A stretch of 35,928 nucleotides of DNA. Source: Nitrosopumilus sp. H13 (lineage in GTDB: Archaea; Thermoproteota; Nitrososphaeria; Nitrososphaerales; Nitrosopumilaceae). Shown here piece after piece: positions 24,299 to 35,928 of this stretch. Position 1 is the stretch's first letter, and every line of letters begins with the position of its first letter. The stretch lies in assembly GCA_003724285.1 (NCBI GenBank), contig RHFB01000061.1, positions 1-35,928 on the forward strand, written 5' to 3'. The position numbers and the translations under genes are program-made. Below the pieces are notes generated by a model. It was not told where the DNA came from. It was given only the letters and a program-made list of their open reading frames with translations, and did no database searches.

Positions 24299-25630
24299 AT
24301 GGCGTCAGGCAAGTACATAGGAATTGGTGCTGGAATAGTGATCATTATAGCTGCCATACTGATAGCAGTAAGCCAGGCTCCAGAAGATGCGATATCCCCC
24401 ATTGACACGCCAGAGGCGCCAGAGCCAGTTGATATAGAACCAGCAGAGGTAGAGCCCGCAGATGCACCAGAACCCGCAGAGACAGCAGAGATGGAGCTGT
24501 CAGGCGAGATTGAGATAGGATCACTTCTTCCCCTGTCTGGACGACTCTCAGGACACGGAGAGGAGAACTTGGCAGGTACTGAGTTTGGAGTAATAAAGTT
24601 CAACGAGCACCTTGAGAGCATTGGAGCCACATGGAGCATAAAGCTCGTATCAGAAGATACGGCAACAAACCAGCAGGTTGCACTTGATAAAATTACCACG
24701 CTTAATGCAAAGGGAGTCAAGATGATCATCGGTCCCGAGACTAGCGCAAACACAAAACATGTAAAGCCGTATGCAGACAGCAACGGAATGTTGCTTGTCA
24801 GCTGTTGCTCTACTGCCCCAGCGCTTGCAATTGCAGACGACAGCGTATACCGCCTTGTTGCAGACGACACCAACCAGGGCCCGGCTCTGGCAGCATTGAT
24901 GGCCGGAGAGGGAATGGAGGTAATGGTACCCATCTGGAGGAGTGACACGTACGGCGACGGCCTGCAAAAGACGGCAACAGAGGCATTTGTGGCAAATGGA
25001 GGTACAGTCGATGAGGGAATCCCATATAGCCCTGACACGCAAGAATTCTCAGTTTCCACATCACTACTTGCAGACATAGTGCTAGGGCATGTTGACAGGG
25101 TTGGAGCAGAAAAGGTCGGGGTGCTATACATTGGATTCAGCGAGATACAGCAGTTTGCCCAGTCTGGATCAGACCACGAGGTGCTCAACCAGGTAAGATG
25201 GTTCGGGCCTGACGGCGCCACAAAGCAGAAGAGCCTGACAACAGACCCGCTCGCATCAGAGTTTGCAGAGACAGTAAAGTTCACATCACTCCAGATTGCA
25301 GCCGCGGAGAATCCGGTTTATGTGAGCGTACAAGAGTTCGTAGAGGAAAAGCTGGGCAGGGAGCCCTCGACATTTGCTCACTCGTCATATGACGCCGTAT
25401 GGCTCATCGGGCTTGCAATGCTAGAGACTGACAGTACGGATGTGGATGCGATAAAGGCAGAGCTGCACGGAGTGGCAGAAGACTATGACAACGCCGCCCT
25501 AGGCAGCATAAAACTCAACGAGGCAGGCGATCTGGCAGAGGCAGACTATGAGATATGGGGCGTCAGGGACGGCGAGTGGAAGCTCTTGGGAGTATACGCG
25601 TTCAGCGACGGCTCGATAACTTTCAACTAG
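24299..25630 (+). CDS. ABC transporter substrate-binding protein, single domain (LivK-type)
   Basis: This is an extracytoplasmic type I periplasmic-binding fold of the amino-acid/amide group. It is anchored by one N-terminal membrane segment (about 5-24), with no lipobox cysteine, and a Pro/Glu/Ala-rich spacer of about 40 residues. The binding domain runs from 'GEIEIGSLLPLSGRLSGHGEENLAG' to the end, with 'GPETSANTKHVKPYADSNGMLLVSCCSTAPALA' and 'FAHSSYDAVWLIGLAMLE' as landmarks. Two adjacent cysteines sit in the loop that normally contacts the ligand. It is the only intact single-domain copy of six related domains in this locus. Ligand unknown. Confidence 0.88.
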   Translation: MASGKYIGIGAGIVIIIAAILIAVSQAPEDAISPIDTPEAPEPVDIEPAEVEPADAPEPAETAEMELSGEIEIGSLLPLSGRLSGHGEENLAGTEFGVIKFNEHLESIGATWSIKLVSEDTATNQQVALDKITTLNAKGVKMIIGPETSANTKHVKPYADSNGMLLVSCCSTAPALAIADDSVYRLVADDTNQGPALAALMAGEGMEVMVPIWRSDTYGDGLQKTATEAFVANGGTVDEGIPYSPDTQEFSVSTSLLADIVLGHVDRVGAEKVGVLYIGFSEIQQFAQSGSDHEVLNQVRWFGPDGATKQKSLTTDPLASEFAETVKFTSLQIAAAENPVYVSVQEFVEEKLGREPSTFAHSSYDAVWLIGLAMLETDSTDVDAIKAELHGVAEDYDNAALGSIKLNEAGDLAEADYEIWGVRDGEWKLLGVYAFSDGSITFN

Positions 25631-25667: not shown

Positions 25668-27263
25668 ATGATGAAATCTGGCGCCGCAGTTGGAATTGGT
25701 GTTGCCATAGTAGTAGTGGCCCTGATAATATACGCAATATCAGGAATCGGGGCAAAACCTGCAGAGCCGGCTCTTGAAGGCGAGATAAATGTGGGACTGC
25801 TTGTCGCAACATCTGGAGACTTTGGCGCGTACGGCCGGGAGAACATAGAGGCGGCAATGCTTGCAGAGTCCGAGTTCAACAAGTATCTGGAGGAGGAAGG
25901 CGAAAAGTGGAGCATAAAGCTGGTAACAGAGGACACGCAGAGCGACCCCGAGATCGCGCTAGAAAAGATAATGGCGTTTAATGAGAAAGGGATAAAGCTG
26001 GTGTCCGGTCCTGAAACCAGTGCGAGCATCATAAGCGTCAAAGAATACGCAGGCAATAACGACATGCTGCTGTTTAGCTGCTGCTCTGTAGCGCCGTCGC
26101 TGTCCGTACCTGGCGATAACATATTCAGGCTCATTACCGATGACACAAAGCAGGGGGCAGTGTTTGACCTGCTCTTTGAGCACGAGGAAATAGAGGCAGT
26201 GGTCCCGGTGTGGAGGGGCGATGTGTGGGGTGACGGCCTCAGCCAGTCTGTAAAAAATGACTTTGCAGGCGGCGTGATGGATGCGGGAATAAGATATGAC
26301 GTTGATGCAGAAGAGTTCTCTGCGCAGGCAGAAGACCTTGCCGGCAGGGTGCAGAAATATGTAGACGAGTACGGCGCAGAAAAGGTCGCCGTGCTGTACA
26401 TTGGATTCGGAGAGATGGTAAAATTCATAGAGGCGGCATCTGCCCACGAGATACTCGGCGATGTGAGATGGTTTGGTTCTGACTCGAACACAAACGACGA
26501 GGCGCTCGTCATGGAACCGACCGTAGAGTTCACGGAAAAGACCAAACTTACGACCGTGCAGGTCTCTGCATCCGGCGGATCCGCGTTTTACAAGGTAAGG
26601 GACCATGTCGAGGAGGCGCTTGGAAAAAAGCCAAACTCGTTTGCACATTCTACATATGACACCATATGGCTCATCGGGCTTGCAATGCTAGAGACCCGAA
26701 GTATAGAGGCGGGTCCCGTTGCAGCCGCGCTGCCAGTGATTGCCGCAGAGCACGAGGGCGCAATAGGCAGCACCGAGCTCAACGAGGCAGGAGATCTGGC
26801 AGATGCGGACTATTCCATATGGGGTGTGAGGGACGGCCAGTGGGCGAGGCTTGGGAATTTTGACTATATCGACAGGGCCATCACGCTTGATGAGTCCGGG
26901 CTCGGAGAGGTGCGGATAGGAATGATCATACCGGAGACTGGCAGTCTCGAGTACTTTGGCGAGGAGGCAATGCTTGCAACGCAGCTCGGAGTGGCAGACT
27001 TTAACGACCACCTAGAGGAGACGGGCGCCACGTGGAGCATGTCCCTTGAGACAAGGGACACAAAGAGCAATGCGCAAGACGCGCTTGCAGGACTAGAGTC
27101 ACTCAATGAAAAAGGGATAAGTCTGGTGCTGGGGGCCTCAAGCAGCGCCACGATTACCGGCATCAAGGACTATGCAGACAGCAATGACATGCTGATTCTC
27201 GGATGCTGCTCGTCTGCGCCGTCGCTTGCCATACCCGGGGGGCGGCGCTCGGAAAGCTGCTAG
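25668..27263 (+). CDS. Multi-domain binding protein, N-terminal part (frame broken)
   Basis: The product has a membrane anchor (about 5-25), a full LivK-type domain (nt about 25776-26890; 'GEINVGLLVATSGDFGAYG' to 'YDTIWLIGLAMLET') and the first part of a second domain starting 'GEVRIGMIIPETGSLEYFG'. It ends out of frame soon after 'GCCSSAPSLAIPG'. The rest of the second domain continues in the -1 frame as the next entry. Compared with intact copies, about 13 residues (the DNIFRL..DDTKQ segment) are missing at the junction, equal to a deletion of about 40 nt. If joined, the protein would be about 1150 residues with three binding domains. Probably a damaged gene, or a sequence error. Confidence 0.8.
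   Translation: MMKSGAAVGIGVAIVVVALIIYAISGIGAKPAEPALEGEINVGLLVATSGDFGAYGRENIEAAMLAESEFNKYLEEEGEKWSIKLVTEDTQSDPEIALEKIMAFNEKGIKLVSGPETSASIISVKEYAGNNDMLLFSCCSVAPSLSVPGDNIFRLITDDTKQGAVFDLLFEHEEIEAVVPVWRGDVWGDGLSQSVKNDFAGGVMDAGIRYDVDAEEFSAQAEDLAGRVQKYVDEYGAEKVAVLYIGFGEMVKFIEAASAHEILGDVRWFGSDSNTNDEALVMEPTVEFTEKTKLTTVQVSASGGSAFYKVRDHVEEALGKKPNSFAHSTYDTIWLIGLAMLETRSIEAGPVAAALPVIAAEHEGAIGSTELNEAGDLADADYSIWGVRDGQWARLGNFDYIDRAITLDESGLGEVRIGMIIPETGSLEYFGEEAMLATQLGVADFNDHLEETGATWSMSLETRDTKSNAQDALAGLESLNEKGISLVLGASSSATITGIKDYADSNDMLILGCCSSAPSLAIPGGRRSESC
27139..27238 (+). repeat. 100-nt block identical to 30755-30854, copy A
   Basis: The block matches 30755-30854 at all 100 positions, while sequence on either side differs at many positions. 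It ends at CCCGG, exactly where the reading frame breaks in both paralogues. Confidence 0.9.
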
Positions 27264-29110
27264 AGCACGAGGGAATAGAGGCAGTGGTCCCGGTGTGGAG
27301 GAGCGACGTGTGGGGCGATGGTTTGCGCGAGGCAGGCCAGAAAGAGTTTGTAGGAAGCGTGATGGATGCGGGAATAAGGTATGACGTCGATACAGAAGAG
27401 TTCACTGCGCTGGCAGAAGACCTTGCCGGCAGGGTGCAGAAATATGTAGACGAGTACGGCGCAGAAAAGGTAGCCGTATGGCACCTGGGATTCAGCGAGA
27501 TGCTGCAGATCGTGCAGGATGCTTCTATTCATGAGATATTAGGGGACGTGAGGTGGTTTGGCTCTGGTCCAAATACAAAAGAGATCAATCTGATCAATGA
27601 CGCGATCGGAAAGGAGTTCCTTACCGGCGTGCAGTTTACCATGATCCATGCGGCCCCGTCAAAGGGCCCCGTTGCAGACAGGGTCTTCAAACACGTGGAG
27701 GGGGAGCTTCGAAGGGAGCCAAACTCGTACTCGCACGCCGCATATGACGCCGTGTGGATAGCGGGGCTTGCGATATCAGAGATTCAAGATACGGATGCCC
27801 TGAAGATCCGGGAGATACTGCCAGATATCGCAGCAGAGTACAGCGGCGCCCTTGGCAGCATTACGTTCAACGAGGCAGGAGACGGCTCCAGCATAGACTA
27901 TGACGTGTGGAGTGTCAGGGACGGCATGTGGAACCAGATCGGGCGCTATTCGCAGGCAGATGACGCGGTGGAACTGGCAGGATCCGCCCCGGGGATCTCA
28001 GGGGAGATAACGATAGGAAGGCTGGCAGACGAGGACAGCACGTCAAGCCACTATGCAGAGAACGTCGAGGCCACAGAGCTGGCGCTAGTAGAGTTCAACA
28101 GGCACCTAGATGAGATCGGCGAGGGATGGAGCCTTGTGATGAAAGGCGCAGATTACGATCCCAGTACGGCGCTCGTGGAGATCAAGAAGTTTGACTCTGA
28201 GGGCATCAAGATCATAATAGGTCCGGAGAACAGCGCGGCAGTAAAAGAGGTAAAGGAATACGTGGACTCTAACGGCATGGTGATCCTCAACTGCTGTTCC
28301 ACTGCGCCAGAGCTTGCAGTAAAGGACGGCATATTTCGTCTGGTAACAGACGATACAAAGCAGGGCGCGGCACTAGCAGGCATACTAGAGCACGAGGGCA
28401 TAGAGGCAATAGTCCCGGTGTGGAGGGGTGATGTGTGGGGTGACGGCCTCATCGAGTCGCTGCAGGCAGAGTACGTGGAGCTTGGGGTTATGGATGACGG
28501 CATAAGGTATGATGCCGATGCGTCAGAGTTTGCAGGGCATGCGGAGGAACTTGCGTCAAGGGTGCAGGAGTATGCGGACTTGTATGGCGCAGAAAAAACG
28601 GCAGTCATGTATGCCGGGTTTGGGGAGATTGCGGACTTTGTCAGGGCGGCGGCATCGCATGAGATACTCGGGGACGTGAGGTGGTTTGGCTCTGATGCGA
28701 GCACAAAGGAGGTAAGCATCATAAACGAACCGGCATTGGCGGAATTCTCGCAAAAGATACTGTTTACTGCCATACAGGTCGGAACCCAGAAAAACCCCAC
28801 AAGGGAGCTAGTAGAGCGCCACGTGATGGACGTCTTGGGCAGATCGCCGAGCACGTATGCAAGCTCGGCGTATGATGCCGTGTGGATTGCGGGGCTTGCC
28901 ATATCAGAGGCCCGTAGCAGCGATGCTGCAGCAGTCAGGGATGTAATTCCGCTAGTTGCAGAGATGTACAGCGGCGCAATCGGAAGCACAAAGCTCAACG
29001 AGGCAGGGGATCTAGAGCAGGCCAACTATGACATATGGGGCGTGCGGGACGGGCAGTGGGTTCTGCTTGGCCGGTACGTGCATACAGGCGACGTTATAGG
29101 GCTCGGCTAA
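27203..29110 (+). CDS. Multi-domain binding protein, C-terminal part (frame broken)
   Basis: The meaningful sequence starts at about 27240 ('GAALGKLLEHEGIEAVVPVWRSDVWGDG'), continuing the second binding domain of the preceding frame, followed by a complete third domain (nt about 27999-29110; 'GEITIGRLADEDSTSSHYAENVEATEL' to 'YDIWGVRDGQWVLLG'). The first dozen residues read from the ATG at 27203 are an overlap in the wrong frame and not homologous. No TATA box or signal peptide is visible for separate expression, so this half would not be exported on its own. The coding pattern remains intact to the end, which suggests a recent break. Confidence 0.8.
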   Translation: MLLVCAVACHTRGAALGKLLEHEGIEAVVPVWRSDVWGDGLREAGQKEFVGSVMDAGIRYDVDTEEFTALAEDLAGRVQKYVDEYGAEKVAVWHLGFSEMLQIVQDASIHEILGDVRWFGSGPNTKEINLINDAIGKEFLTGVQFTMIHAAPSKGPVADRVFKHVEGELRREPNSYSHAAYDAVWIAGLAISEIQDTDALKIREILPDIAAEYSGALGSITFNEAGDGSSIDYDVWSVRDGMWNQIGRYSQADDAVELAGSAPGISGEITIGRLADEDSTSSHYAENVEATELALVEFNRHLDEIGEGWSLVMKGADYDPSTALVEIKKFDSEGIKIIIGPENSAAVKEVKEYVDSNGMVILNCCSTAPELAVKDGIFRLVTDDTKQGAALAGILEHEGIEAIVPVWRGDVWGDGLIESLQAEYVELGVMDDGIRYDADASEFAGHAEELASRVQEYADLYGAEKTAVMYAGFGEIADFVRAAASHEILGDVRWFGSDASTKEVSIINEPALAEFSQKILFTAIQVGTQKNPTRELVERHVMDVLGRSPSTYASSAYDAVWIAGLAISEARSSDAAAVRDVIPLVAEMYSGAIGSTKLNEAGDLEQANYDIWGVRDGQWVLLGRYVHTGDVIGLG

Positions 29111-29208
29111 GCACCATATGCATCCCCGTATGATCCCATCTGCGCTGGCAGTCTAGATATCCTCAAAGACGCGCCTGCAACTTGTCACGCCATCGGCTCT
29201 AGATTATA

Positions 29209-29216
29209 TTTAATAA
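29209..29216 (+). promoter_or_regulatory. TATA box of the two-domain binding-protein unit
   Basis: TTTAATAA ends 23 nt before the ATG at 29239. This supports 29239 rather than the GTG at 29221 or the ATG at 29281 as the start. Confidence 0.65.
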
Positions 29217-29231
29217 GGTAGTGCGCGACAC

Positions 29232-29310
29232 AGGTGTGATGAAACCGCGCGTGATGATTGGAATCGGCAACATAGGTGTGATGAAACCGCGCGTGATGAT
29301 TGGAATCGGC
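29232..29310 (+). repeat. 42-bp tandem duplication at the start of a binding-protein gene
   Basis: A 37-nt sequence (29232-29268) recurs perfectly at 29274-29310, a period of 42 bp, so the frame is kept. It duplicates 14 residues before the membrane segment (GVMKPRVMIGIG twice) and creates two alternative starts, ATG 29239 and ATG 29281. Confidence 0.9.
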
Positions 29311-30885
29311 GGCGCAGTTGCGGCAGCCGTCATAATACTTGTACTGTCAGGATCGTCTGCGCCTCCGCCCGAGGAGCCCGTAAAAGCCGGGCTTGATGGG
29401 GAGATAAAGATCGGATTGCTTGCCGCCGCGTCAGGAGACTTTGACGCGTACGGCCGGGAGAACATAGAGGCGGCAATGCTTGCAGAGTCCGAGTTCAACA
29501 AGTACCTGGAGGAGGAAGGCGAGCAGTGGAGCATAAAGATCGTACAAAAGGACACGCAGAGTGATCCTGAGATCGCGTTAGAAATGATAACGGCGCTTGA
29601 CGAGGAGGGAATAAAGCTGGTGTCCGGTCCTGAAACCAGCGCAAGCATTAATAGCATCAAAGAGTACACCGCAGAAAACGACATGCTGTTGTTTAGCTGC
29701 TGTTCCACTGCGCCGACGCTGGCCGTACCTGGTGATAACATATTCAGGCTCATTCCGGACGACACAAAGCAGAGCATAGTCTTTGCCAAGCTCTTAGAGC
29801 ACGAGGGCATAGAGGCAATAGTCCCGGTGTGGAGGGGTGACGTGTGGGGTGACGGCCTGGTCACGGCCACCAGGAAGAACTTTGATGGCAAGATGGACTA
29901 TGGAATAAGATACTATACCTATACGGAGAGGTTTACCTCCCATACGGACGACCTTGTAGGAAGGGTGCAAAAGCTCATAGACGAGTACGGCGCAGAAAAG
30001 GTAGCCATACTATACCTGGGATTCGGGGAGATGCCAAAATTCATAGAGGCGGCAACTGCCCACGAGATACTCGATGACGTGAGGTGGTTCGGCTCTGACT
30101 CGAACACAAACGACGAGGCGCTCGTCATGGAGCCGACCGTAGAGTTCACGGAAAAGACCAGACTTACGACCGTGCAGGTGTCAGCGTCTGGCGAGTCGTC
30201 GTTTTACAAGGTAAGGGATCACATAAAAGAGTCGTTTGGAAGGGAGCCGAGCGCGTTTGCATACTCGACATACGACACCATATGGCTCATCGGGCTTGCA
30301 ATGCAGGATGTCCAGAGCGCCGAGACTAGTTCGGTTGCCGTGGCACTGCCCACAGTCGCCCTGTCATACGAGGGCGCCATTGGCGATACGGGGCTCAACG
30401 GGGCAGGGGATCTGGCAGATGCGGACTATTCCATATGGGGCGTGAGGGACAGACAGTGGGAGAGGCTTGGAAGCTTTGGCCACAGAGACGGCTCCATCTC
30501 ATTTGACGAGTCTGGATTGGGAGAGGTAAAGATAGGCCTGCTCATACCGGAGACGGGCAGCCTCGAGTATTTCGGAGAGGACATCATGCTTGCGACGCAG
30601 ATTGGAGTGGCAGAGTTCAACGAGTATCTGGAGGGGGCGGGCCAGACATGGAGGATGACGCTTGAGACAAGGGACACAAAGAGCAATGCGCAAGACGCGC
30701 TTGCAGGACTCGAGGATCTGGACAAGAGGGGAATAGGAGTGGTACTGGGGGCCACAAGCAGCGCCACGATTACCGGCATCAAGGACTATGCAGACAGCAA
30801 TGACATGCTGATTCTCGGATGCTGCTCGTCTGCGCCGTCGCTTGCCATACCCGGCAGCACGCAGCGGCACTTGCAAGGCTCCTAG
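29239..30885 (+). CDS. Two-domain binding protein, N-terminal part (frame broken)
   Basis: The start at ATG 29239 is set by the TATA box. After a duplicated N-terminal stretch and a membrane anchor ('GGAVAAAVIILVLSG') comes one complete LivK-type domain (nt about 29392-30510; 'GEIKIGLLAAASGDFDAYG' onward), nearly a copy of the first domain at 25.7 kb, then the start of a second domain ('GEVKIGLLIPETGSLEYFGED'). The frame ends shortly after 'GCCSSAPSLAIPG', at the same point as in the other paralogue. Joined to the next frame it would be a protein of about 790 residues with two binding domains. Relative to intact copies about 37 nt are missing at the junction. Confidence 0.8.
   Translation: MKPRVMIGIGNIGVMKPRVMIGIGGAVAAAVIILVLSGSSAPPPEEPVKAGLDGEIKIGLLAAASGDFDAYGRENIEAAMLAESEFNKYLEEEGEQWSIKIVQKDTQSDPEIALEMITALDEEGIKLVSGPETSASINSIKEYTAENDMLLFSCCSTAPTLAVPGDNIFRLIPDDTKQSIVFAKLLEHEGIEAIVPVWRGDVWGDGLVTATRKNFDGKMDYGIRYYTYTERFTSHTDDLVGRVQKLIDEYGAEKVAILYLGFGEMPKFIEAATAHEILDDVRWFGSDSNTNDEALVMEPTVEFTEKTRLTTVQVSASGESSFYKVRDHIKESFGREPSAFAYSTYDTIWLIGLAMQDVQSAETSSVAVALPTVALSYEGAIGDTGLNGAGDLADADYSIWGVRDRQWERLGSFGHRDGSISFDESGLGEVKIGLLIPETGSLEYFGEDIMLATQIGVAEFNEYLEGAGQTWRMTLETRDTKSNAQDALAGLEDLDKRGIGVVLGATSSATITGIKDYADSNDMLILGCCSSAPSLAIPGSTQRHLQGS
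30755..30854 (+). repeat. 100-nt block identical to 27139-27238, copy B
   Basis: This is the partner of the block at 27139-27238. Downstream of CCCGG the two copies differ (the B copy is 6 nt longer up to the shared GAGGGAATAGAGGCAGTGG), so the junctions are not identical although the block is. Confidence 0.9.
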
Positions 30886-31604
30886 ATCACGAGGGAATAG
30901 AGGCAGTGGTCCCGGTGTGGAGGGGTGACGTGTGGGGTGACGGCCTGTACGAGGCAGGCCAAAAGGAGTTTGAAGGTACTGTGATGGATCCGGGCATAAG
31001 GTACAAAGTCGATACGGAAGAGTTCTCTGCGCCGGCAAAAGACCTTGCCGGCAGGGTGCAGGGGTATGTAGACGAGTACGGCGCAGAAAACGTAGCCGTG
31101 TGGTATATGGGGTTTAGCGAGATGATCCAGTTCGTGCAGGATGCTTCTATTCATGAGATACTCGGGGACGTGAGGTGGTTTGGCTCTGGCTCGAACACAA
31201 AGGAGATCGAGCTGATTAACGACGCGGTGGGGACGGAATTCCTTTCTGACGCCAGGTTTACAATGGTTCATGCCGCACCATCTCAGGGACCGGCGGCAGA
31301 CAAGCTGTTCAGGCATGTCAAGGACGATCTCGGAAGGCAGCCAAGCTCGTACGCCCACACCGCATATGATGCCGTGTGGATCACAGGGCTTGCGATATCA
31401 AAGCTGCAAGATACGGACGCCCTGAAGATCCGGGAGATACTGCCGGATGTCGTGTCAAGGTACAGCGGCGCCCTTGGCAGCATTACGTTCAACGAGGCAG
31501 GAGACAACGCAAAGGCCGACTACGAGGTGTGGGGTGTGAGGGACGGCCAGTGGGGATATCTGGGGATATACCTGAATGATAATGATTCCATAACGCTTGA
31601 CTGA
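30819..31604 (+). CDS. Two-domain binding protein, C-terminal part (frame broken)
   Basis: Homology starts at about 30860 ('HAAALARLLDHEGIEAVVPVWRGDVWGDG') and runs to the end of a LivK-type domain ('YDAVWITGLAISKLQD', 'YEVWGVRDGQWGYLG'). It supplies the second half of the domain begun in the preceding frame. The residues read before that from the ATG at 30819 are an out-of-frame overlap. No signal peptide or promoter of its own is visible. The stop lies 5 bp before the end of the convergent livF gene. Confidence 0.78.
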   Translation: MLLVCAVACHTRQHAAALARLLDHEGIEAVVPVWRGDVWGDGLYEAGQKEFEGTVMDPGIRYKVDTEEFSAPAKDLAGRVQGYVDEYGAENVAVWYMGFSEMIQFVQDASIHEILGDVRWFGSGSNTKEIELINDAVGTEFLSDARFTMVHAAPSQGPAADKLFRHVKDDLGRQPSSYAHTAYDAVWITGLAISKLQDTDALKIREILPDVVSRYSGALGSITFNEAGDNAKADYEVWGVRDGQWGYLGIYLNDNDSITLD

Positions 31605-31609
31605 GGGCA

Positions 31610-32335
31610 TTACGGGGTTTGATTGAGACCCAGGTACATGCGCCCGAGATCCGGCTGGGCAAGCAGCTGGTCTGGCTTGCCCTCAAAGACGCGCTTTCCC
31701 CCCGCCACAAGGTACACGTGGTCTCCAACATCCAGGGCGCGCCTCGTGTTCTGCTCTACTAGTATTATGGCAATTCCAAACTCGTCGCGCATCTCTTTTA
31801 TCTTTTCGAGCACCTCGTCTGCAAGCTTGGGCGAGAGGCTGGCAGTCGGCTCGTCAAAGAGCATCAGCTGAGGGCGCCGTATCAGCGCCATGGACATTGC
31901 AAGCATCTGCCGCTGCCCGCCGCTGAGTATTCCCGCCTTTTGCTTTTCATACTCTTTGAGTATTGGAAAGGTCTCAAACATCTCCGGCACCCTCTCTGCC
32001 TGAATCTTTGAATCAAGGGTGTATCCTGCCATGGTAAGGTTCTCCCGGATCGTGAGATCTGCGAAGACGTTGTTTGTCTGCGGGAGAAACGCGATCTTTT
32101 TTCGCGCAATGGCGTGGGGCGCAAGGCCGGTAATGTCCTCCCCCGCGTATGTTATCTCGCCCGAGTACACGCTGCACAGCCCGAAGATGCTCTTTAGCAA
32201 CGTGCTCTTGCCGCTGCCGTTCGGGCCGACGATCACGGTAATGTCTTCCTTTTTTGCCTCAAAGTCAATGCCGAATATGATGTGGCTTGCGCCATACCCT
32301 GCATACAGGTTGCTTGTCTGTATTATGGCGCCCAT
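31610..32335 (-). CDS. livF: ABC transporter ATPase, LivF type
   Basis: This is a cytoplasmic ATPase that powers amino-acid/amide uptake. The 241 residues have Walker A GPNGSGKST (37-45), Q-loop LPQTNN, the signature LSGGQRQML, Walker B LMLFDEPTA and the switch His replaced by Gln in LVEQNTRRAL, which is normal for LivF. It starts 1 bp after the stop of livG, so the two are cotranscribed. It faces the binding-protein genes tail to tail. The permeases LivH and LivM are not in the window. Confidence 0.92.
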   Translation of the reverse strand: MGAIIQTSNLYAGYGASHIIFGIDFEAKKEDITVIVGPNGSGKSTLLKSIFGLCSVYSGEITYAGEDITGLAPHAIARKKIAFLPQTNNVFADLTIRENLTMAGYTLDSKIQAERVPEMFETFPILKEYEKQKAGILSGGQRQMLAMSMALIRRPQLMLFDEPTASLSPKLADEVLEKIKEMRDEFGIAIILVEQNTRRALDVGDHVYLVAGGKRVFEGKPDQLLAQPDLGRMYLGLNQTP

Positions 32336-32336
32336 C

Positions 32337-33089
32337 TCATCCCCCCAGATACGACTCGACGACTGTCGGATGCCGTATCACCTCGTCGGGATCGCCCTGC
32401 ACGATTATCCTGCCGTTGTTCATCGCAAAGACCTTTTCCACGTACTGCAGCGAGATGTCCAGCCGGTGCTCCACTATGAGAAACGTTATGTTCCGGTTCT
32501 TGCAGATTTCTGCAATCTTTTTGAATATCTCGTGCGCTAGCGTGGGGTTGACTCCTGCGATCGGCTCGTCCATGAGTATCATCTTTGCGCCAGACATCAT
32601 GGCGCGGCCTAGCTCCAGCAGCTTTTTTTGCCCGCCGCTCAGGTTCTTTCCGAGCTCGTCTGCGCGCTCGTGAAGGTTCACATCCTCCATCACGCCCAGA
32701 GCCGTGTCGAGTATTTTTTTTTCGTCGTTCTTCCATCCGGGGGTGGGGGCAAGGAGGAACGATTCGCCAGAGTTGCCTGCCGCTGCCACCATAAAGTTCT
32801 CAAGCGTGGTGAGACTCTCAAAGGGCTGCGGGATCTGCCAGGTGCGGACCAGGCCCGCGCCGTGCGTCTTGTACAGGCCCAGCTTTGTAATGTCCTTTTT
32901 GTCAAAGAGTATAGAGCCCTCATCGGGCGGGAACATGCCAGATATGGCATTGATCAGCGTGGTCTTGCCGCTTCCGTTTGAGCCAATCAGCTGGGAGATG
33001 GTGCCCTCTTTTACCTCCATGTCCACGCCGTCAAGGACCCTGTTGCCGCCAAAGCTCTTTTTGACGCCGGAGACGGTAAGAATTGCCAT
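32337..33089 (-). CDS. livG: ABC transporter ATPase, LivG type
   Basis: The second ATPase of the same transporter class. The ATG at 33089 (MAILTVSGVKKSFGG) lies 24 nt after a TTTAAT box at about 33113-33119 on the minus strand; the frame opens earlier at 33104. Motifs are Walker A GSNGSGKTT (36-44), signature LSGGQKKLLELG, Walker B MILMDEPIAGVNP and the His in LIVEHRLDI. 'GLVRTWQIPQPFESLTTLENFMVAA' is the LivG-specific region. Length fits the family. Heads a livG-livF operon. Confidence 0.92.
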   Translation of the reverse strand: MAILTVSGVKKSFGGNRVLDGVDMEVKEGTISQLIGSNGSGKTTLINAISGMFPPDEGSILFDKKDITKLGLYKTHGAGLVRTWQIPQPFESLTTLENFMVAAAGNSGESFLLAPTPGWKNDEKKILDTALGVMEDVNLHERADELGKNLSGGQKKLLELGRAMMSGAKMILMDEPIAGVNPTLAHEIFKKIAEICKNRNITFLIVEHRLDISLQYVEKVFAMNNGRIIVQGDPDEVIRHPTVVESYLGG

Positions 33090-33137
33090 CATTATGTAGA
33101 TCACATGACGGGATTAAAGGGTTTAAGATTTAGCTCT

Positions 33138-34802
33138 TCAGAGGTCTTCTAGCGAAGGTCCCCAGTCCAGAGTGTCTCCGCTTGTAGCAATCCCCCCAGA
33201 AGACTTTTCATTTCCGGGCTTTGCTGCATTCCCGCTTGTAATCAGAGGCTCTTCAGCCGGAGCATCATCCATACTTGCAGGCTCGGCATCTGTGTCTTTT
33301 GTTTTGTCATCTGCAGGCTCTGCAGTCCCCGCCTCTAGATTTCGGAGGACAATCCCAAGCGCCCTCTTCATCAGCTTGGGCGTTGGATGCGGGTCGTGCC
33401 CTATCTCCACTGCCTTGTCATAGATTACCCCCTGCTCTGCATTCCTGCAGTCCTGGCATAATCCGTCAAGGTATGTGTCCATATTGTCAGGCTCTTTCTT
33501 GCCATAGTCAAGCTCGCCCGTGCCGTCAAACCGCTCCAGCTTTAATGGCACGTTGACGCACGGCCCCGGGTCAGAGAGCGTCCTGCCCTTGCATATCCAC
33601 ATGCCGCGCGGGTATGCGCGAATGCTGTTCTTTGCACCCTCTGGAGGGGGGCGCTTTGCGCACGGGTATTTTTTCCACCTGGCATAGTGGGTGGCGCAAA
33701 GCCAGCCGGACTCGATGGGCGTCTCCTCGTCCCCTATGAGGGTGGTGATGTTGGGCTTTGTCCCATAGTACGGCTTTTGCCAGAGCCGTTCCGCCCACGT
33801 CCGGGGTTCGATGGTGCATCCGTTCACGCAGGCGTCCTTTTGCCTCCTGTCACTCTTGCTGGTGCGCGTGCGCGCGCCCTCTGGATTCCGCTCTTTGCCG
33901 TGCATTCTAAAGTATTGGTAGCATGCGGCGCACCTTCCCTTCGAGGTGACCTGCTCCTTGTGGCAGTTAGAGCAGCGCCTCTTTGGGGGCAGTAGTGACC
34001 GCTCGTACAGCTGGCGCACGCGCTCCGGGTCGCGGTCCTCTCCGTGCTTGTTAAAGTACTGGTAGCATGACGAGCACCTGTCCTTGGATACGACCTGGTT
34101 TCTGTTACATATGATGCACTGTCTCTGGAGCGGCCTCAGGGCCCTTGCAACTATCATGCGCGTCCTCTCCTTGCTGCGGTCCTCTCCGTGCTTGTTAAAG
34201 TGCTGGTAGCATGACGAGCACCTGTCCTTGGATACGACCTGGTTTCTGCCGCAGATGATGCACTGTCTCTGGAGCGGTCTAAATGCCCTCTCGTACAGCA
34301 TGCGGGCATGCTCGGGGTCGCGGTCCTCTCCGTGCTTGTTAAAGTGCTGGTAGCATGACGAGCACCTCTCCTTGGATACGACCTGGTTTCTGCCGCAGAT
34401 GATGCAGCTTTTCTGCGTCTCTGGCTCTTGGAAGGACTGGCGCACCGCCCTTTTGGATCTTGCACGCGCCTTTTCGGGGTCTATGTCCATTTTGTGCAGT
34501 CTGAAATACTGGTAGCATGCAGAGCACCTGCCCTTTGATACGACGCTTGCCACGCCGCAGTTTGAGCACTGTTTTGCAGAGTCCCCTCCCGCATCAAGCT
34601 TGGTTCTCAGCACCCGGTCAGCCCCGTGCTTTCTGTAATACTGGTAGCAGGTGGAGCACCTGCCTATGGACACGATCTTTTCTCTGCCGCAGTTTGAACA
34701 GCCGCCTGTTTTTGCATGAATTGTGATTCCAGAATCAAGACATGTTTGGCACAGCATGTCGCGCACAATATTTCGTTTGTAACAACTTTTACATAGTCCC
34801 AT
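33138..34802 (-). CDS. Protein with seven tandem zinc-ribbon-like modules
   Basis: The frame opens at 34901, but MGLCKSCYKRN from the ATG at 34802 is a better start (554 residues); ATG 34817 is possible. Seven modules each have two Cys-X-X-Cys pairs, at 4/7+18/21, 35/38+49/52, 79/82+93/96, 133/136+147/150, 181/184+195/198, 229/232+243/246 and 277/280+291/294. The consensus is C..CGR.QVVSK.RCSSCYQ.F.KHG.DR with a basic linker. The second half has further Cys/His pairs, including 'GWLCATHYARWKKY', like the 'GLC..HY.RW' elements of phage and HNH-type proteins. The last 90 residues are acidic and disordered. No nuclease active site is evident. Nucleic-acid binding is an inference. Confidence 0.85.
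   Translation of the reverse strand: MGLCKSCYKRNIVRDMLCQTCLDSGITIHAKTGGCSNCGREKIVSIGRCSTCYQYYRKHGADRVLRTKLDAGGDSAKQCSNCGVASVVSKGRCSACYQYFRLHKMDIDPEKARARSKRAVRQSFQEPETQKSCIICGRNQVVSKERCSSCYQHFNKHGEDRDPEHARMLYERAFRPLQRQCIICGRNQVVSKDRCSSCYQHFNKHGEDRSKERTRMIVARALRPLQRQCIICNRNQVVSKDRCSSCYQYFNKHGEDRDPERVRQLYERSLLPPKRRCSNCHKEQVTSKGRCAACYQYFRMHGKERNPEGARTRTSKSDRRQKDACVNGCTIEPRTWAERLWQKPYYGTKPNITTLIGDEETPIESGWLCATHYARWKKYPCAKRPPPEGAKNSIRAYPRGMWICKGRTLSDPGPCVNVPLKLERFDGTGELDYGKKEPDNMDTYLDGLCQDCRNAEQGVIYDKAVEIGHDPHPTPKLMKRALGIVLRNLEAGTAEPADDKTKDTDAEPASMDDAPAEEPLITSGNAAKPGNEKSSGGIATSGDTLDWGPSLEDL
34000..34420 (-). repeat. 144-bp tandem repeats within the zinc-ribbon gene
   Basis: Matching points such as CGAGCACCT recur at 34071, 34215 and 34359, an exact period of 144 bp (48 codons). 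The three middle modules are close to identical in protein and DNA, with outer modules more diverged, the pattern expected from recent internal duplication. Confidence 0.85.
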
Positions 34803-34817
34803 TTTTCTAATTATCAT

Positions 34818-35040
34818 TGTATAGATGAAACAAATAAGCCTTTTGTAAAAGAGAACTTGTGTGGCTGGCAGATCCCGGCAAAAGGCGCTCAAAACTAACA
34901 TTTTGGCGCCTAGATCAGAAACATTGACGGTCAGGCGGCTTGATTAAAAGAAGCTCAGACGCATGACCGGGGCAGTCGCCGCCGCGTGATCTTTGCAGAA
35001 GATTAGATGTGTCTCTGCAAGAGTCTGCCTCGCATAGTCA
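34818..35040. other. Noncoding stretch with a stem-loop near the 3' end of the last gene
   Basis: No open frame of note, tRNA or clear C/D-box RNA is seen here. AGGCGC (34884-34889) and GCGCCT about 17 nt later form a short inverted repeat. TTGCAGA (34993-34999) and TCTGCAA (35014-35020) make a perfect 7-bp stem with a 14-nt loop, flanked by GGCAG and CTGCC that could add an outer stem. Read on the minus strand this lies just after the stop of the gene at 35041-35898, so it may be a 3' structure. The AT-rich bases near 34817-34840 belong to the promoter of the zinc-ribbon gene. Confidence 0.4.
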
Positions 35041-35898
35041 TCAGCGGCTCTCCAGGTATTCTAGCGCGGCAAGCTCTGCTATTCGCAGCTTTTCAAGTAT
35101 TATGGGGTCTTTAAGCTTGTCAATTTTTACCGGGGCATCGTGACTGAATGACTCACCTACCGTGCTCTTTATGGATTCTGCATCAAAGACCTGTCTTGCC
35201 TTTTCTTTTTCCTTTTCCACCAGGTCTTCAAAGCTGCTGTGGGATCGAGTCATTACGTTTGCATGGGTGTCCTGTAATCTCTCAAAGTCTGCATGGGTAA
35301 TCTGGAACCACGAGCCGTACGAGTTCTTCATCCACGTGAATCCGTGCTGGTCAGACCACAGATTGTACCTCCTGTCTGGCTGCGTTAGATGTGTTATCTC
35401 TACCGGGTGCTGGTTGCCCTTTTTGGAGAATATCGTATGCGTGAGTAGTGGGAGTAGCGGCTCCCCCTCAAAGTCGACTCCGTCGTTGATGTATGTGGTG
35501 GTGACTCTTCTGTCCGTATCCATTGCAGATACTGCCAGCACGTCATGGATTAGCGGGGCCATTATACTGAATGAGATAGTGATCTCGTGGCACTGTCTCT
35601 CAGAGTCTGGCATGCATGGAACCTTTTCAATCGATATTGTAGTGTCTGATTCCTCTACCAGCTTTTCTTTTTGCTCGTGTATAATGTCTATAATGTCGTA
35701 TTCGGCGGGACTTTGATAGTTTCTATTCATCTTTATCATTATCTGCGCCTCTGCATCAGAGACGCGCGAGGGCTCTGGCACCCCGAGGGATATAGTAATG
35801 GTATCAAGGGACATGTCAGTGTATACTCTTGCCTTTGCGGTGTTTAGCTGCCCGATTGTAGCCGTGACTTTATCAAACTCTGTGTGAAAGTTGTCCAC
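35041..35898 (-). CDS. Unknown protein, start near the window edge
   Basis: The GTG at 35898 gives 285 residues, and an ATTAAAT element about 19 nt before it could be its TATA box. The frame is, however, open to the window edge, so the true start may lie outside. There is no signal peptide. Visible parts are a mixed alpha/beta N-terminal half with a single cysteine-containing patch ('VPCMPDSERQCHEITISF'), a Trp-rich patch ('NLWSDQHGFTWMKNSYGSWFQI') and a charged helical C-terminal region from about residue 205 ('SFEDLVEKEKEKARQVFDAE'), possibly coiled coil. I do not recognise the family. Confidence 0.72.
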   Translation of the reverse strand: MDNFHTEFDKVTATIGQLNTAKARVYTDMSLDTITISLGVPEPSRVSDAEAQIMIKMNRNYQSPAEYDIIDIIHEQKEKLVEESDTTISIEKVPCMPDSERQCHEITISFSIMAPLIHDVLAVSAMDTDRRVTTTYINDGVDFEGEPLLPLLTHTIFSKKGNQHPVEITHLTQPDRRYNLWSDQHGFTWMKNSYGSWFQITHADFERLQDTHANVMTRSHSSFEDLVEKEKEKARQVFDAESIKSTVGESFSHDAPVKIDKLKDPIILEKLRIAELAALEYLESR

Positions 35899-35928
35899 AA
35901 CATCTACTGTCCTTCCATTTAATGCAAA

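Follow-up and report, generated by a model that had tools for sequence, protein, structure and literature searches.

Introduction

LivK-type branched-chain amino acid binding proteins (arCOG01201) are expanded in sponge-associated Thaumarchaeota, as described for a set of thaumarchaeal metagenome-assembled genomes (MAGs) that was recovered from Hexadella sponges, includes Nitrosopumilus sp. D6 and shows 85.7% identity between its two Hexadella species (PMC6697440). The assemblies of that set were generated with IDBA_UD, with k raised from 20 to 100 by increments of 20 (PMC6697440). The length by which IDBA-UD scaffolds overlap perfectly is often n, the largest k, and local assembly errors are suspected to be especially common in the output of this assembler (PMC7111523). 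The COBRA study instead gives the overlap of IDBA_UD contigs as maxK-1, and it discourages the use of IDBA_UD scaffolds, since scaffolding may introduce errors (PMC10914622). The present study examines two neighboring LivK-like genes of the sponge-dwelling ammonia-oxidising archaeon Nitrosopumilus sp. H13 that appear broken at the same position, and compares them with their intact relatives and with the repeat structure of the assembly in which they were deposited.

Results

Gene content of the LivK-like array

The window, that is, the whole stretch of DNA analysed (35,928 nt), is the entire contig C46 of a 92-contig MAG of 1,176,375 bases and 84% completeness. It carries three adjacent LivK-like binding-protein genes in tandem, namely a single-domain gene, gene A and gene B, with the following parts:

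24299..25630, + strand, single-domain LivK-like paralogue, intact, used as comparator (ORF list, Pfam)
25668..27263, + strand, gene A 5' part as assembled, domain A1 and the first part of A2 (ORF of 531 aa; Pfam Peripla_BP_6 / ANF_receptor)
27203..29110, + strand, gene A 3' part in a shifted frame, the rest of A2 and A3 (ORF of 635 aa)
29221..30885, + strand, gene B 5' part, domain B1 and the first part of B2 (ORF of 554 aa; Pfam)
30819..31604, + strand, gene B 3' part in a shifted frame, the rest of B2 (ORF of 261 aa)

The Peripla_BP_6 and ANF_receptor matches exceeded the curated cut-off, with the gene B 3' part matching ANF_receptor only, and on this sequence basis genes A and B are LivK-type periplasmic binding proteins with a putative role in branched-chain amino acid binding. 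The listed ATG of the gene A 3' ORF falls within a 100-nt block shared by both genes, while the true frame enters at 27239, where the homology to a three-domain protein of the related genome IBTHAUMO2 also begins. The gene B 3' part shares 80% amino acid identity with the intact gene of D6.

Several other features were observed around the array. LivF/LivG-like ATPase genes adjoin it at 31610-33104. The start of gene B contains a 42-nt tandem duplication (29225-29308) by which the N-terminal MKPRVMIGIG is doubled, giving two possible starts. Farther along, the minus strand at 33138-34901 encodes a 587-aa protein that matches zinc ribbons weakly and whose DNA is internally repeated with a 144-nt period, and its D6 counterpart likewise has 144-nt repeats.

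Two frame breaks at the end of one shared block

The initial annotation had reported that both fused genes leave their frame at the same place in the second domain, directly after 100 nt of perfect identity with diverged flanks. Both points were borne out, with the identity measuring exactly 100 nt and the frame being lost at its last base, as seen in the following features:

27139..27238, + strand, 100-nt block, gene A copy (domain A2), ending at the probable false junction; maximal exact match to 30755-30854
30755..30854, + strand, 100-nt block, gene B copy (domain B2), ending at the probable false junction; maximal exact match to 27139-27238
27238..27239, + strand, gene A junction, with 40 nt fewer than homologous domains
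30854..30855, + strand, gene B junction, with 34 nt fewer than homologous domains

The flanks of the block are mostly identical at 10-18 of 20 positions and the paralogues outside it are ~78-84% identical, so that 100 identical nucleotides lie far beyond expectation by chance. Measured against A1, B1 and the domains of the relatives, the missing length in gene A agrees with the earlier estimate of about 40 nt, but gene B lacks 34 nt rather than the proposed 37 nt. The offset between the two genes is 3616 before the junction and 3622 after it. In gene A the 5' frame stops at 27263 and the other frame continues to 29110, and in gene B the stop lies at 30885 and the continuation reaches 31604; the ORFs and the alignment agree that the frame shifts in the same direction in both, as had been claimed. 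Past the junction, both genes resume a frame homologous to the relatives. The lost 34-40 nt are not marked by a run of N, and the break lies inside the contig in both copies. The segment was also found, as annotated, in the other four domains of the window, and the observation as a whole is accurate for the deposited sequence.

Exact repeats in the assembly

Exact repeats were surveyed across contig ends and sampled stretches totalling 554 kb (47% of the MAG). Seven exact repeats of at least 96 nt were detected, each of exactly 100 nt; the remaining exact repeats in this sample reach 95 nt, and none is longer than 100 nt. Six of the seven join one contig end to another, and the A2/B2 block is the seventh and the only one inside a contig. 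Two of these contig-end overlaps are the one between the last 100 nt of C18 and the first 100 nt of C14, and the one at the right end of the window:

35829..35928, + strand, last 100 nt of C46, identical to the first 100 nt of C34 (reverse complement); exact match

The gene at this right end (35041-35928) is 94% identical to a paralogue at C34:1-890, with divergence beyond the shared 100 nt, and this end represents the same type of break in the assembly graph. In addition, an exact 80-nt overlap between the end of C31 and the start of C7 fits a lower step of the 20-40-60-80-100 k series. A hard stop of this kind, together with the pile-up of repeats at 100 nt, is the trace of a de Bruijn graph with k = 100, and the assembly is shown to behave as one. 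Within this assembly, the contig-end overlaps and the A2/B2 block have one and the same length. For k = 100 the maxK-1 rule would give 99, so that the overlaps of 100 found here differ from the value of PMC10914622 and agree with that of PMC7111523.

The MAG itself fits the Hexadella set of PMC6697440, because C46 is syntenic with D6 at ~85% protein identity (a rough estimate from matched genes), and we infer that it belongs to that set and hence derives from an IDBA_UD assembly with k of 20-100. The one contig end of D6 that was tested showed no exact 100-nt overlap, and a 74-nt match detected there did not lie at a contig end.

Relatives and selection

LivK-like domains were surveyed in the window, in contig C60 and in five related genomes. 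The segment is kept at the same place in all 17 other domains (17/17), and only A2 and B2 are without it. Versions carrying the missing segment, which the initial annotation had proposed to look for, were present in relatives, with D6 and IBTHAUMO2 intact at the site. Specifically, the gene B counterpart in D6 (Nitrosopumilus sp. D6, RHFD01), the closest relative found, is one open two-domain frame of 806 codons that retains the segment, and the gene A counterpart in IBTHAUMO2 is one open three-domain frame of 1156 codons. In D6, the counterpart of gene A (C87:15468-16718) ends after domain 1 and the linker, so that A2 and A3 are apparently absent from D6 at this place. No copy of the missing segment was found elsewhere in the assembly, where family matches occur only on C46 and C60, the C60 copy being a separate, intact paralogue. 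The plasmid collection searched gave no match.

Reading frames on either side of the break look maintained under purifying selection. The dN/dS values were 0.14 (B vs D6) and 0.24-0.27 (A vs B) before the break, and remained close to these after it, at 0.18 and 0.29, respectively. Relaxed selection downstream of the break was not seen by dN/dS, a measure that a very recent break would escape.

A further patch of near identity was observed in D6, where 159 nt of domain 2 of the gene B counterpart match the neighboring A1 counterpart with one mismatch (C87 14836-14994 and 16098-16256; 73 + 85 nt exact). This patch is likely to be genuine gene conversion, and conversion probably occurs in the LivK-like family, which makes a naturally identical stretch in A2 and B2 plausible.

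Discussion

The two breaks are considered, with a probability of about 0.92, to be an assembly artefact at a repeat common to the two paralogues, both genes being intact in the cell. A repeat-assembly error was among the explanations listed in the initial annotation, and it is favoured because the block length equals the k of the short-read assembler, which is also that of the six contig-end pairs; the gene conversion, recombination hotspot and switching mechanism listed beside it are not needed and have no independent support. Points against the artefact reading are the 99-nt overlap that the maxK-1 rule implies, the D6 contig end lacking an exact 100-nt overlap, and the probable gene conversion within the family. 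In the proposed sequence of events, the real A2 and B2 would share an exact stretch of more than 100 nt that holds the missing segment completely or for the most part. On entering this shared repeat, each upstream contig would halt after 100 nt, like the ends of C46 and C34, and paired-end joining, a modelled step, would then attach the downstream contig as if the overlap equalled k, with the rest of the repeat being lost. Such joining would account for the length of the block, for its ending at the break and for the same site being affected in both genes. Should A2 naturally have two codons fewer than B2, a single loss of 34 nt would fit both copies and their common shift; alternatively, two joins may have lost 40 and 34 nt separately. 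In the cell, gene A would then encode a single LivK-like binding protein of three domains and gene B a single one of two domains.

A real double lesion would require a 34-nt loss in one copy, its transfer to the neighbor by a gene conversion of about 100 nt and an extra 6-nt difference at the edge, leaving split genes or pseudogenes. Conversion-like patches among the array paralogues and an identical block amid diverged flanks speak for such a history, but its tract would have to stop within a few nucleotides of the deletion, and the tract length is exactly the assembly k of 100 nt rather than independent of it. Moreover, the relatives are intact and selection downstream is not relaxed, and we regard this history as very unlikely. 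The same low standing is given to the biological consequence that it would carry, namely that recombination placed one frame-breaking deletion into both neighbors, silencing them together or splitting their chains.

Deletions that arose independently in the two genes at a hotspot, whether in the cell or in the population, would agree with the differing implied lengths of 40 and 34 nt. This scenario, however, leaves the 100-nt block and its length unexplained and has no parallel deletion in the 17 other domains, making it extremely improbable. Equally little credit is due to programmed frameshifting or on/off switching at a conserved site, which is suggested by the two genes shifting alike after the same codon: the relatives have the segment and read through it in one frame, and the downstream ORFs begin out of frame within the block with no obvious signal sequence. 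Furthermore, frameshifting would not restore the coding bases that are absent, and programmed frameshifting was rejected on the grounds of these missing bases and the open frames of the relatives.

An assembly artefact at the shared repeat, the preferred reading, means that apparently convergent pairs of gene breaks can be products of the assembler, for which a quick test is to ask whether the shared block is as long as the exact contig-end overlaps within the same MAG. For counts of transporter genes in sponge archaea, A and B should be taken as intact fused binding proteins.

The locus resembles the IDBA-UD local errors of previous studies (PMC7111523; PMC10914622) in that exact shared sequence equals the largest k at graph breaks and in that errors at repeat sites give false broken genes, whereas it differs from them in that both copies are broken within a contig here and lack bases with no run of N. 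Likewise, genes A and B are similar to known LivK-type proteins in their Pfam matches, their LivF/LivG-like ATPase neighbors and their multi-copy occurrence in sponge symbionts, but differ from them in having two to three domains fused per chain, as is also the case in D6 and IBTHAUMO2.
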